A DNA stretch of 64,000 bases. Source: an uncultured Desulfovibrio sp. (GTDB lineage: Bacteria; Desulfobacterota; Desulfovibrionia; Desulfovibrionales; Desulfovibrionaceae). The translations under genes were made by a program, and so were the position numbers. The notes under the pieces are model-generated. The model did no database searches. It saw only the letters and a program-made list of their open reading frames with translations, and was not told where the DNA came from. Position 1 is the stretch's first letter, and the number at the start of each line of letters is the position of its first letter. The DNA lies in NCBI GenBank assembly GCA_913063155.1, contig CAJXYU010000001.1:186001-250000 (forward strand), in the 5' to 3' direction. Positions 56,628 to 63,817 of the stretch are shown piece after piece.

Positions 56628-58214
56628 GTGGAAAAGATACTCAAGAAAGAAGTGGAACGTCGCCGCACCTTCGGCATCATCAGCCACCCGGATGCGGGCA
56701 AGACCACGCTCACGGAAAAACTGCTGCTCTTCGGCGGGGCCATTCAGATGGCGGGCACCGTCAAATCACGCAAGGCGGCACGCCATGCCACCTCCGACTG
56801 GATGGCCATGGAACAGCAGCGCGGCATCTCCGTGACCTCCTCGGTCATGAAATTCGAATACAACGGATACGAGATCAACCTGCTGGACACCCCCGGTCAC
56901 CAGGATTTTTCCGAAGACACCTACCGGGTGCTCACTGCGGTGGACTCCGCTCTCATGGTCATCGATTCGGCCAAGGGCGTGGAAAACCAGACCCGCAAAC
57001 TCATGGACGTCTGCCGCCTGCGCGACACGCCCATCATCACCTTCATCAACAAGCTCGACCGGGACGGCCGCGACCCCCTGGATCTGCTGGCCGACATCGA
57101 GGAAACCCTGAACATCGAATGCGCCCCCCTGTCCTGGCCCATCGGCATGGGCAAACAGTTCAAGGGTGTCTATTCCATTTTCGAAAAAAAGCTGCACCTC
57201 TTTTCGGCCACCCACAACGGCGGCATCATGGAGGGGCTGGTCATCGACTCCCTGGACGACCCGAGGCTGGACGAAAAGCTGGGCCCGCAGGCCGACCAGT
57301 TGCGCGAGGAATTGGAGCTGCTCGAAGGCGCCGGCTATCCGTTTGACCCGGAACGCTACCTGAAAGGCAAGCAAACCCCGGTTTTCTTCGGCTCGGCCAT
57401 CAACAACTTCGGCGTCAAGGAGCTCATGGACACCTTCGTGAACCTGGCCCCCTGCCCGCAGCCGCGTCCGGCCGTGGAACGCGAGGTATCCCCCTTCGAG
57501 ACCGACTTCTCGGGCGTGTGCTTCAAAATCCAGGCGAACATGGACCCGCAGCACCGGGACCGCATCGCCTTCGTGCGCATCAACTCCGGCAAGTTCACCC
57601 GGGGCATGAAGGTCAGGCACCACCGCACCGGCAAGCCCATGCAAATATCCAAGGCCACCATATTCATGGCCCAGGACCGCGAAGGCGTGGAAGAGGCCTG
57701 GCCCGGCGACATCATCGGTGTGCACAACCACGGCACCATCAAGATCGGCGACACCTTCACCGACAAGGAACCGCTCAAATTCACGGGCATCCCCAACTTC
57801 GCCCCGGAAATCTTCCGCCGCGTCATCCTCAAGACTCCGCTCAAGGCCAAACAACTCCAGAAAGGCCTTATCCAGCTGGCCGAGGAAGGCGCCGTACAAC
57901 TTTTCCGCCCCATCCAGAACAACGACTACATCCTCGGGGCCGTCGGCATGCTCCAGTTCGACGTGATTCAGTCGCGCCTCAAGGACGAATACGGCGTGGA
58001 CGCCATCTACGAACCCGTGGAGTTGTACACCGCCCGTTGGGTGACCGCCGACGACCAGAGCAAGCTCAAAACCTTCAAAAAACAGGCCGAACGCTATCTG
58101 GCACTGGACGCGGACGAAAATCTCACTTACCTTGCTCCGAGCCGCTGGAGGCTGGATGATGCAGTTGAAACCTGGCCGGACATCAGTTTCCACAAGACCA
58201 GGGAACACGTTTAA
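56628..58214 (+). CDS. prfC: Peptide chain release factor 3
   Basis: The 528-residue GTPase recycles RF1/RF2 after peptide release. G1 is [14 protein letters not shown]3 [15 protein letters not shown]4 [10 protein letters not shown], and the RF3-specific [13 protein letters not shown] and [20 protein letters not shown]-like segments are intact. The start is GTG at 56628, with AAGGA eight bases upstream; the frame extending to 56592 has no support. It is followed nine bases later by an exonuclease gene. Confidence 0.96.
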
Positions 58215-61570: not shown

Positions 61571-61622
61571 AAAAGGGCGGTCCCCCATGTATTGAAACAT
61601 ACACGGGGGGCCGCCCCTTTTT
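61571..61622. terminator. Bidirectional terminator between GT2-GtrA gene and HesB-like gene
   Basis: A long stem-loop (AAAAGGGCGG with CCGCCCCTTTT, plus CCCCC/GGGGG and ATGT/ACAT inside) has a T-run on both strands. It ends the plus-strand glycosyltransferase and the minus-strand HesB/IscA-like gene. Confidence 0.85.
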
Positions 61623-61659: not shown

Positions 61660-62001
61660 TTACGAGCAACCGCTTCCGCAGCCGCCTTCAGTGGTGCCGC
61701 AGCAACCTCCGCTGCCACAACCGCCGCCACCGGGCAGCTGCTTTTCGCTGGCGACCTGGAACCCGTATTCGTTGGCGTGGATGTTGATGTCGCCGGTGAA
61801 TTCGAACAGCCCTTCTTCGGCGATGAAGGTGAATCCGTCGATATCAAAGGACTTGTCCCCGTCCTTGACGGCATCGAGAGCCAGGCCGAGCATGGGACCG
61901 GAGCAGCCGCCCTGGGCCACGTACACGCGGATGGGCTGGCGGTCCTGGCCGTCAAAGTGCTCTTCGAGCTTGCCGATAGCTTCCTTGGTAACTTCGATCA
62001 T
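61660..62001 (-). CDS. HesB/IscA-like protein with Cys33 and cysteine-rich tail
   Basis: The 113-residue protein belongs to the HesB/IscA group. The first conserved cysteine is Cys33 in AQGGCSGPMLGLALD. Instead of the C-terminal CGCG pair it ends in a Gly/Cys-rich tail (GGGGCGSGGCC, then TTEGGCGSGCS). IscA-type proteins carry or deliver iron-sulfur clusters; this subgroup is not characterised. It aligns throughout with the product of the upstream gene at 62232-62555, in which codon 33 is UGA, so the two are tandem duplicates. The ATG at 62001 has AGGAGG-like sequence upstream. It has its own terminator downstream and the other gene's terminator upstream, so each is transcribed separately. Confidence 0.88.
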   Translation of the reverse strand: MIEVTKEAIGKLEEHFDGQDRQPIRVYVAQGGCSGPMLGLALDAVKDGDKSFDIDGFTFIAEEGLFEFTGDINIHANEYGFQVASEKQLPGGGGCGSGGCCGTTEGGCGSGCS

Positions 62002-62179: not shown

Positions 62180-62206
62180 AAAAAAAAAGCGCCCCCGAAG
62201 GGGCGC
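62180..62206 (-). terminator. Strong intrinsic terminator of the selenoprotein gene
   Basis: GCGCCCC (62189-62195) pairs with GGGGCGC (62200-62206) through a 4-base loop. On the minus strand nine Ts or so follow (62181-62188 and beyond). It ends the HesB-like selenoprotein gene just after its stop. Confidence 0.9.
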
Positions 62207-62231
62207 CGTACAGTCAGGGCGCCATAATGCG

Positions 62232-62555
62232 CTAACAGGCGCAGGAACCGCTGGAGCAGGCGCCGGAAGAGCAACCGCCTCCACCGCCCACGGGTTTTTC
62301 GGAATCCACAGAGAATCCGTAGTATGTCATATCGATCTTGATGCCGCCGGTCTCCTGGGAGAGATCCTTATCCAGCAGAAACCGGAACCCGGCAACTTCG
62401 TACACTTCGTCAGTATCCTTAGGCTCATCCAGAGCCAGAGTCAGCCTGGGGCCTGCTCAACCGCCGGATGCAAGATAGACCCGGATGGGCGAAGCTTCTT
62501 TGTCCGCGAAGTAGCCTTCAAGCTGCTTCTGAGCGGATTCAGTCACGTTAATCAT
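62232..62555 (-). CDS. HesB/IscA-like selenoprotein with in-frame UGA (Sec33)
   Basis: Reading through one TGA (62459-62457, codon 33) gives a 107-residue protein starting MINVTESAQKQLEGYF and ending in a cysteine tail (SSGACSSGSCAC). The UGA falls exactly at the conserved cysteine of the family: ASGG-U-AGPRLTLALD here versus AQGG-C-SGPMLGLALD in the tandem paralogue. Both sides of the TGA show clear homology to the paralogue with no frameshift, and a hairpin with a G at the start of the apical loop (62435-62449) follows. AGGAGG lies before the ATG. I read it as a selenocysteine codon rather than a nonsense mutation. Ordinary gene finding would report no or a truncated gene here. Confidence 0.85.
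62421..62456 (-). promoter_or_regulatory. Putative bacterial SECIS element inside HesB-like gene
   Basis: Counting from the UGA on the minus strand, CCAG (62449-62446) pairs with CUGG (62438-62435) around the 7-base loop GCUGACU, whose first base is G as bacterial SECIS loops require. AGGC (62454-62451) can pair with GCCU (62424-62421) outside. The apical hairpin begins 7 bases after the UGA, within the usual range. Confidence 0.6.
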
Positions 62556-62734
62556 TGATGCCTCCTTTCAATCATAGGGAAATGAAGAGGTAAGTCCTAT
62601 ACATGAGTTTGTCAATTCATAAATAGGAAGCAATCCTAAAACACACTGTTGACCGGTGCTTCCGCTTGGATTATCCCTTTATATTCCTAGAAGGATCATC
62701 CCCTTTGCTGCATCTAAAAAAAGGTGGAACATAT

Positions 62735-63271
62735 ATGCGCGAATGCGGAACCATACTCAACGGCAAGGACATGAACCGGACCCTTGAGCGTCTGGCCATG
62801 GAAGTCATAGAGCGCCGCGGCGACAACGAGCGTCTGGCCATCGTCGGCATCCAGCGGCGCGGAGCCGACTTGGCGGACCGCCTGAAACGGCTGCTGGACA
62901 AGGAACTGGACCGCAAGGTGCCTCTGGGCAAGCTGGATATCAATCTTTATCGCGACGACTGGACCACCCTGGACATCCAGCCGGCCATCAACTGTACGGA
63001 AATCCCCTTCGACATCGAGGGCGCGAGCATTGTTCTGGTGGACGACGTGCTCTTTTCCGGGCGCACCATCCGCGCCGCCCTGGAAGCTATCCTGGACTAC
63101 GGCCGCCCCAAGCGTGTGGAACTGCTGGTGCTCATCGACCGGGGCCTGCGCGAACTGCCCATCCAGCCGGACTACGTGGGCAAAAAAGTCAAAACCGTCA
63201 AGGGCCAGCACGTGAACGTGAAGGTGTTGGAACGCGACGCCGAAGACCAGGTCTGCATCGTCGAGGAGTAA
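62735..63271 (+). CDS. pyrR: Bifunctional pyr operon regulator/uracil phosphoribosyltransferase PyrR
   Basis: The 178-residue protein is a PyrR. It has MRECGTILNGKDMNRTLERL at the start, GIQRRGADLADRL, DINLYRDDW, and the PRPP-binding loop VLVDDVLFSGRTIRAAL. PyrR binds pyr mRNA in Gram-positives; in this lineage it may act mainly as a uracil phosphoribosyltransferase, since no pyr gene adjoins. The ATG at 62735 has AAGGTGG before it; the longer frame from 62666 starts with TTG and lacks support. The shikimate-kinase-like gene follows nine bases later. Confidence 0.92.
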   Translation: MRECGTILNGKDMNRTLERLAMEVIERRGDNERLAIVGIQRRGADLADRLKRLLDKELDRKVPLGKLDINLYRDDWTTLDIQPAINCTEIPFDIEGASIVLVDDVLFSGRTIRAALEAILDYGRPKRVELLVLIDRGLRELPIQPDYVGKKVKTVKGQHVNVKVLERDAEDQVCIVEE

Positions 63272-63280
63272 CCGGACAAC

Positions 63281-63817
63281 ATGGGTTTCAAAAAGGTTGA
63301 GCAGGAGGAACCCAAGGTCCCCTGCATTTCCCTCATCGGCATGGCCGGAGCGGGCAAGTCCACGCTGGCCCCGTTGTTGGCCAAGGTCCTGAACTGGGCT
63401 CATCTGGACTCGGACCACCATATTGAGGCTTACTACGCCATGCCCCTGCAGGCCATCTACGACACGTACGGTCACGAAAGATTTCTTGAAATCGAAGGCC
63501 AACTCGTGAGTGAACTCATGCTGCACCGCACGGTCATCTCCACAGGCGGCAGCGTGGTCTATTCGGAAAAGGCGCTCGCCAAACTCAAGAAGCTTGGCCC
63601 GGTGGTGCACCTGGACGTTTCAGAGGATACCTTCATCCAGCGCGTGGGCGACGCCAGCGAGCGCGGCCTGGCCATAGCGCCCGGCCTGACCCTGCGCGAC
63701 CTCTACAGAGAGCGGGAACCCCTGTACCTTGCCGCCGCCGACATCACGGTGCGTACCGACGACTGCACGCCGGAGGAATGCGTGCGCCGAATCCTCGAAC
63801 AAGTGAATCTTTCATGA
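63281..63817 (+). CDS. Shikimate-kinase-like P-loop kinase
   Basis: The 178-residue protein has Walker A GMAGAGKST, then LDSDHHIEA, YGHERFLEIEG and STGGSVVYSE, which match shikimate kinase in order and spacing. The usual D-x-D and R-x-x-E contacts are at DSD and ERFLEIE. The lid Arg (shikimate kinase R...R) is less clear (SERGLAIAPGLTLRDLYRERE). Homologues in this lineage may phosphorylate shikimate or another small alcohol. Its stop overlaps the next start by four bases (ATGA), and it follows pyrR by nine bases, so the three form an operon. Confidence 0.8.
   Translation: MGFKKVEQEEPKVPCISLIGMAGAGKSTLAPLLAKVLNWAHLDSDHHIEAYYAMPLQAIYDTYGHERFLEIEGQLVSELMLHRTVISTGGSVVYSEKALAKLKKLGPVVHLDVSEDTFIQRVGDASERGLAIAPGLTLRDLYREREPLYLAAADITVRTDDCTPEECVRRILEQVNLS

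Follow-up and report, generated by a model that had tools for sequence, protein, structure and literature searches.

A predicted HesB-like selenoprotein gene and its tandem cysteine paralogue in an uncultured Desulfovibrio species

Does a short gene of an uncultured Desulfovibrio species, crossed by an in-frame UGA at its 33rd codon, encode a selenoprotein of the HesB/IscA type, and what is the role of the copy with cysteine at the same place that stands next to it? Both genes lie in the window, by which we mean the whole stretch of 64,000 nucleotides that was analyzed (G000:C1:186001-250000, from a 4.3-Mb genome). The features on which the question turns are the following.

62232 to 62555, minus strand: Sec (selenocysteine) copy, an IscA/HesB family protein of 107 amino acids with U33, four tail cysteines and the stop codon TAG (open reading frame read; NF038090, 121.1 bits, cut-off 85; Pfam Fe-S_biosyn, 31.4 bits, cut-off 26.3)
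62457 to 62459, minus strand: Sec codon UGA, codon 33 and the sole in-frame TGA (open reading frame read; 152 of 305 copies have TGA at the aligned position)
62561 to 62566, minus strand: AGGAGG, the likely ribosome-binding site of the Sec gene (read in the sequence)
62180 to 62207, minus strand: intrinsic terminator between the Sec and Cys genes (7 G-C pairs and 1 G-U pair, then 9 U)
61660 to 62001, minus strand: Cys paralogue of 113 amino acids with C33 and five tail cysteines (NF038090, 94.8 bits, cut-off 85; 1 bp, not 5, at the SECIS register)

A HesB-like gene with UGA at codon 33

The original prediction held that homology between the two neighboring proteins continues without a shift on both sides of the UGA, that the neighbor has Cys33 at the same residue, and that a terminator follows the TAG. 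All three observations hold: the Sec gene has a single TGA (62459-62457) within a shift-free alignment around codon 33, the reading frame at 62001-61660 encodes C33 at this position, and the hairpin with its U run lies at 62207-62180. The two genes are 230 bp apart, and their proteins are 49% identical. The best named matches of the Sec-gene protein are in Salidesulfovibrio, Pseudodesulfovibrio, and Desulfovibrio. Beyond the Cys gene, the interval that separates it from a convergent glycosyltransferase gene contains a long G+C-rich inverted repeat (61571-61622) with A and T runs at its flanks, likely, when read by eye, a two-way terminator.

Both proteins score above the curated cut-off of NF038090 (IscA_HesB_Se), for which the one-line description reads "IscA/HesB family protein," and nothing excludes their membership. 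The original prediction expected the Sec gene to escape standard annotation; for its family, NCBI has this curated model. Neither reached TIGR01911 (HesB_rel_seleno), the label used in reviews (36.2 and 31.6 bits; cut-off 66.35), and the Cys paralogue, at 24.6 bits, remained below the Pfam Fe-S_biosyn cut-off of 26.3.

HesB-like selenoproteins are a known family, not a new one. As the original prediction stated, such proteins have already been reported, according to the available parts of the sources since 2006-07 and with D. vulgaris included. Eleven HesB-like selenoproteins, with D. vulgaris and D. desulfuricans among the carriers, are given in Tables 1 and 3 of PMC1794560, which also illustrates a SECIS-like remnant in a Desulfitobacterium homologue with Cys. 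The accessible part of PMC1914089 places D. vulgaris DVU_1382 in the family, that of PMC13188914 gives the motif UxGP and the label TIGR01911, and PMC9312934 and PMC1242214 name the family in lists. An archaeal HesB-like protein, that of Methanococcus maripaludis, was found via mutagenesis and 75Se labeling; in the sections available, its function is described as not clear and the mutant as unimpaired in nitrogen fixation (unpublished there) (PMC11097638). The window protein resembles the bacterial members, as far as these sources describe them, in having Sec at the conserved HesB Cys and the motif UxGP, and Desulfovibrio is among their carriers. Likewise, a UGA aligned to the conserved Cys, a SECIS element, and the Sec machinery in the genome were all found.

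Evidence for reading of the UGA as selenocysteine

A search of the genome for selA, selB, selC, and selD had been suggested as a check, and all four were found above their cut-offs. The tRNA-Sec scored 76.9 bits (cut-off 47) and was called by ARAGORN as tRNA-SeC with anticodon tca; SelB (393.7 bits; cut-off 242.25), SelA (607.6 bits; cut-off 267.9), and SelD (323.4 bits; cut-off 125) were present as well. The SelD match holds one in-frame TGA (L197), and Sec synthesis thus seems to need Sec. A second match to the tRNA-Sec family (L002; G000:C3:211084-211160) scored 48.3 bits, barely above the cut-off of 47, and adjoins a SelB-like match (L012); it is perhaps an ordinary tRNA near an EF-Tu gene.

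Homologues were compared across 172 loci (L020-L190 and the window), which yielded 305 copies. The residue at the U33 position, a comparison that the original prediction had proposed, is Sec in 152 of these, Cys in 141, and another residue in 12. Merging of duplicate loci left 141 Sec and 129 Cys genes, and in the Sec genes one hairpin is fixed in its distance from the UGA.

62422 to 62436, minus strand: core of a bacterial SECIS hairpin, GGCUC-UGGAU-GAGCC, whose loop begins 25 nt after the UGA and has G as its second base (found in all 141 Sec genes and in 6 of 129 Cys genes; 4.9% predicted by synonymous recoding)

A stem with 5 or more base pairs, closing a 5-nt loop UGGAY that starts exactly 25 nt after the UGA was found in all 141 Sec genes, which are related and hence not independent trials, while a stem of at least 5 bp at this register was present in only 6 of the 129 Cys genes. 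Among genes sharing the same peptide, the stem occurred in 139/139 Sec versus 2/74 Cys genes. Synonymous recoding of the Sec genes produced it in 4.9%, and in no more than 9.9% in any of 200 runs; the Cys genes show it at a frequency of 4.7%, compared with 1.2% expected by recoding. The codon before the loop (Ala; Val in two genes) has T as its third base in 141/141 Sec genes, and C is the commonest third base there in the Cys copies. Furthermore, in two Sec genes a C-G pair of the stem has become T-A, with both sides changed.

The hairpin of the window has a 5-nt loop with G second, a 5-bp stem, a spacing of 25 nt, and, as an 18-nt hairpin alone, a folding energy of -8.8 kcal/mol. These values fall within the bacterial SECIS limits stated in the legend to Fig. 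2 of PMC13188914 (loop of 3-9 nt, upper stem of 4-16 bp, G as the first or second loop base, spacing of 16-37 nt, minimum free energy of -7.5 kcal/mol or lower). The same energy limit was reached by the 45 nt after the UGA in 141/141 Sec genes, the predicted structure containing the 5-bp core in 132 of them, and by the 18-nt hairpin alone in 126/141. The folding energy of the window segment compared with shuffles did not stand out (three cuts gave z = -1.10, -1.71, and -0.66) and was as such unconvincing; register and the synonymous-codon test were used instead.

The hairpin to which the original prediction had pointed, 7 bases downstream of the UGA and with G first in its loop, is present (CCAG-GCUGACU-CUGG, 4 bp) but is not the conserved element. 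Its loop begins 11 nt from the UGA, closer than the published 16-37 nt, and 4 bp at this site occur in just 17/141 Sec and 5/129 Cys genes, by which it was ruled out as a conserved SECIS. As for the six stem-bearing Cys copies, those of L020 and L091 retain a 6- to 7-bp hairpin at the SECIS place, and we regard these hairpins as SECIS-like remnants. The L020 copy sits beside its Sec twin, and the L091 copy comes from a genome (G088) in which no SelB was found at E <= 1e-60. The other four (L117-L119 and L121) are near-copies from one group with a different stem sequence.

The part of the gene behind the UGA is under selection as protein, as judged from low dN/dS and pN/pS values there. Codons 34-89 compared with the nearest relative (L154, from genome G229) gave a dN of 0.044 and a dS of 0.487. 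In 300 pairs of 25 Sec genes from the window and its genus, the median pN/pS over the 50 codons after the UGA was 0.24 (0.17 before the UGA), with values below 0.5 in 99.7%. Other stops or frameshifts in orthologues would have spoken against a selenoprotein. Of the 305 copies, 304 stay open for at least 95 residues without another TGA; the one exception is a Cys copy truncated where its locus (L133) ends. It was also observed that 33/152 Sec copies (L143, L075, L055, L157, L067, and L042 among others) terminate with TGA; UGA would thus be read as Sec and then as stop within one reading frame.

Matches to NF038090 were detected in 264/288 genomes of the family (above the cut-off in 241) and SelB at E <= 1e-60 in 232/288. 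For the co-occurrence count, 167 genomes were re-searched (47 selB-negative, and 51 plus 69 selB-positive without a TGA row among the matches listed); in the remaining 97 selB-positive genomes, a TGA row was already present among the matches listed. A TGA-bearing copy of at least 50 bits was found in 199/217 selB-positive versus 16/47 selB-negative genomes (Fisher p = 2e-16; hand count), a comparison that covers genomes with a family match and registers a TGA inside the match irrespective of its codon. No such copy was found in 18/217 selB-positive genomes, and 31/47 selB-negative genomes had copies without TGA only. Twelve of the 16 selB-negative TGA carriers are genomes of less than 90% completeness. 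Among the 24 selB-negative genomes with at least 90% completeness and at most 5% contamination, 4 keep a TGA copy (G093, G176, G263, and G269), and missing contigs are a possible reason for the absence of SelB from these four.

Taken together, the machinery genes, the fixed hairpin, the selection after the UGA, and the co-occurrence with selB bear out the original reading, and the window gene is near certain to be a selenoprotein gene whose UGA is read as Sec. That the UGA is instead a real stop, a sequencing error, or the mark of a decaying gene would agree with the unexceptional folding energy of the window segment taken alone. However, TGA recurs at the same codon in 152/305 copies, the SECIS hairpin is present in every Sec gene, and dN is far below dS past the UGA, which makes this explanation extremely improbable.

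The tandem locus and the origin of the Cys copies

The original prediction described the two genes as a Sec/Cys duplicate set, and the wider comparison agrees. Written with U for Sec, C for Cys, and X for a copy with neither, the order of copies in 161 non-redundant places was UC in 72, U in 33, CU in 21, C in 20, UCX in 10, CCU in 2, XU in 2, and UCC in 1, the single-copy counts being inflated where the fetched stretch ends nearby. In all 161 places the copies share one strand, and the median distance from a Sec gene to the following Cys gene is 136 bp. A third tandem copy was observed in the nine fetched loci of genus g39 (L037, L039-L044, L046, and L048; at about 1.0-2.0 kb in each locus), in which Cys33 has been replaced by E, A, or D and the tail has two Cys and one or two His at its end. 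In the genus of the window, one copy (L155) has Leu at position 33.

62735 to 63271, plus strand: PyrR-type phosphoribosyltransferase, divergent neighbor of the cluster (NF003549, 222.9 bits, cut-off 138; adjoins the cluster in 125 of 161 places)
62588 to 62615, minus strand: conserved promoter-like element TTGACA-N16-TTACCT, which begins 60 nt upstream of the Sec ATG (104 of 116 first-position Sec genes have TTGACA within 220 nt)

Neighbors were identified by tblastn with chosen neighbor proteins, as clustering of stop-to-stop reading frames had returned many antisense frames and was abandoned. The PyrR-type gene lies upstream and divergent in the 125 places noted above; it adjoins the cluster in 0/9 places of g34, 2/9 of g21, and 0/7 of the more distant loci L058-L064. 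Next to pyrR in the window, a shikimate-kinase-like gene (63281-63814, plus strand) matches NF040667 (hom_kin_desulfo, homoserine kinase; 238.8 bits, cut-off 197). On the other side of the cluster, a glycosyltransferase gene was found in 2/161 loci, most of which carry about 1.5 kb of flank. The window also contains the gene for release factor 3 (prfC; 56628-58211, plus strand; 873.6 bits), about 4 kb from the Sec gene. This gene was considered as a link to UGA decoding and treated as chance, being found in 1/161 loci (L165), a count that is weak evidence given the short flanks, about 1.5 kb in most loci.

The promoter-like element tracks gene order at least as much as Sec/Cys identity. TTGACA within 220 nt was present in 104/116 Sec and 33/43 Cys genes in first position, in 14/25 Sec and 17/86 Cys genes in second position, and in 5.9% of random windows. 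A terminator-like site separates the genes in 41/83 Sec-then-Cys pairs (2/83 after single-base shuffling) and in 9/23 Cys-then-Sec pairs (0 after single-base shuffling). These data bear on the suggestion in the original prediction that the two copies are used under different selenium or metal supply. The support is only indirect and comes from the 31/47 selB-negative genomes without TGA copies and from the terminator-like sites in Sec-then-Cys pairs, but the promoter-like element tracks position in the cluster as much as residue identity.

The history of the copies was examined in trees with residue 33 masked. The Sec and Cys labels require 24 and 27 changes, respectively, on a 282-row tree and 19 and 20 changes on a 93-row tree. 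A 40-row tree, with one Sec and one Cys copy for each of the 20/43 genus/locus labels that have both in one locus and the other rows dropped, required 12 changes per label, of which 7 are forced by starred branches. Forcing the 20 Sec rows into one group in this tree cost 197 log-likelihood units (p-AU 4.9e-7, in a test applied after the earlier trees had been seen), and a single old Sec/Cys split was thereby rejected. The alignment has 91 columns and the tree many open forks, and these few columns, together with long Cys branches, above all that of the window, limit the detail with which the origin of the Cys copies can be traced.

On this evidence, the Sec and Cys copies do not form two ancient lineages, and the Cys twins thus arose or were converted repeatedly. 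The SECIS-like remnants in the Cys copies of L020 and L091 also count in favor of this. We infer that either Cys copies were repeatedly born from the Sec gene or tandem copies were repeatedly homogenized everywhere but at codon 33 and the SECIS. Gene conversion could leave the same pattern as repeated duplication, and the AU test does not separate an ancient duplication followed by conversion from duplications made anew. A single ancient duplication into Sec and Cys genes, followed by conversion between the tandem neighbors, is a serious possibility, although we lean away from it. The pyrR-divergent locus is common to many genera, and the copies are closely spaced, which speaks for this history, but both gene orders exist (UC and CU), as do extra copies (UCX, CCU, and UCC).

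Sec and Cys isoforms within one genome are also known from M. maripaludis, where the Cys isogenes are repressed by HrsM at adequate selenium (PMC11097638, from the part available); no such regulator is known here, and in contrast to that system, as far as it is described there, the window and its relatives have copies of a small carrier-like protein in tandem. In the portions of the open-licence literature that were available, no earlier description was found of Sec and Cys genes clustered in tandem, of such clusters arising repeatedly, or of their place divergent from pyrR, which is weak evidence of absence.

Fold, cysteine-rich tail, and candidate function

The Sec protein has an A-type fold, as judged by Foldseek on its predicted structure (AlphaFold2; pLDDT 77.4, pTM 0.63; residues 91-107 under 50). 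The top five Foldseek matches were IscA (1r94 and 1s98), [2Fe-2S] IscA (1x0g, two chains), and SufA (2d2a), with E values of 9.5e-7 to 5.7e-6 and TM-scores of 0.58-0.67 by query length. A profile search agreed with this result and aligned Sec33 to the conserved Cys of AQ_1857 and HI1723.

A C-terminal CGCG motif is a trait of canonical IscA, SufA, and ErpA. The original prediction had noted a Cys-rich tail in place of this motif in the window pair, and this holds across the family: CGCG is absent from both window tails and occurs in 0/141 Sec and 7/129 Cys tails, while at least three tail Cys are present in 139/141 Sec and 126/129 Cys genes. The Sec protein thus shares with the canonical proteins the fold and the place of the first ligand residue but differs from them in having Sec for Cys and no CGCG, and it scores far below the equivalog cut-offs (IscA, 28.1 bits against 150.6; ErpA, 21.7 against 117; SufA, 19.4 against 136.2). 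It is also below the cut-off of TIGR00049 (35.6 bits against 58.8).

No protein above the TIGR00049 cut-off was found in any of the 36 genomes of the genus, while the same search succeeds in 8/14 control genomes. In the genome of the window, TIGR00049 at E <= 0.01 returned the Sec/Cys pair and no other match. A search of this genome with PF01521 returned nothing at E <= 1, even though the Sec protein itself reaches 31.4 bits in Pfam; PF01521 was judged too blunt and TIGR00049 was used instead. As PF01521 missed even the Sec/Cys pair, claims of absence from such searches are not airtight. With no IscA/SufA/ErpA-type protein above the TIGR00049 cut-off in the genus, the Sec/Cys family may be its sole A-type set. 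In other genera, weak extra matches were seen (e.g., G005, G010, and G016), which may be ordinary A-type proteins.

The Sec protein is most likely an A-type Fe-S or iron carrier with a selenolate at a ligand position and a flexible Cys-rich tail. In the proposed mechanism, SelB and Sec-tRNA decode the UGA at codon 33, aided by the hairpin whose loop begins 25 nt downstream, a step borne out by the comparison and the machinery genes. The selenolate of Sec33 would replace the conserved ligand Cys of A-type Fe-S carriers, and the flexible tail, with three or more Cys, would supply the other ligands in place of CGCG. The protein would then take up an Fe-S cluster or iron and hand it over to client enzymes, and the adjacent Cys copy would be its selenium-independent version. 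Such Cys copies would have been made or re-homogenized repeatedly at one locus, often divergent from pyrR. The carrier role is rated at about even or better, and selenoprotein identity and carrier role together are regarded as quite probable. The Sec/Cys family would accordingly form the A-type set of the organism, with Sec33 and the tail Cys as putative ligands.

A redox or metal-binding role based on the selenol, with the A-type fold but in place of Fe-S carriage, is unlikely for the Sec protein. Many selenoproteins are thiol-oxidoreductase-like (PMC13188914, in its accessible part), but the motif here, U[A/S/G]GP, is neither UxxC nor CxxU. Nine of the 12 copies without Cys33 retain a two-Cys tail with one or two His at its end, and the tail may thus bind metal by itself; against this stand the fold and the nearest PDB relatives, which are those of Fe-S carriers, and the lack of any other A-type protein above the cut-off in the 36 genomes of the genus. 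As for the Cys copy, it may be a specialized paralogue with other clients and not a selenium backup, a reading that is quite conceivable if not the favored one. The two window proteins are no more than 49% identical, the window Cys copy is a long branch, and terminator-like sites split the genes in 41/83 Sec-then-Cys pairs. However, 31/47 selB-negative genomes have non-TGA copies only, as if one copy sufficed, which argues against such a specialization.

The locus deserves attention for three reasons: the copies stand in tandem, this arrangement was made repeatedly, and the genus seems to lack any other A-type carrier. HesB-like selenoproteins are without settled function (PMC11097638, in the sections available). 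Here, many species have the Sec and the Cys version next to each other, and in the genus of the window no other A-type carrier was found, which makes the function accessible to deletion of one gene or the other. In addition, the invariant SECIS and the recurrent Cys twins offer well-defined material for comparing how genes retain or lose selenocysteine. A more far-reaching proposal, tentative and on balance doubtful, is that ordinary A-type Fe-S carriers have been replaced in this genus of relatives of sulfate reducers, and perhaps more widely, by a carrier with a selenolate-bound cluster, and that a Cys twin has split off or been converted beside it time and again, at one locus, as a spare that works without selenium. 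If true, nature would have run, in replicate, a test of what Sec contributes to cluster transfer.
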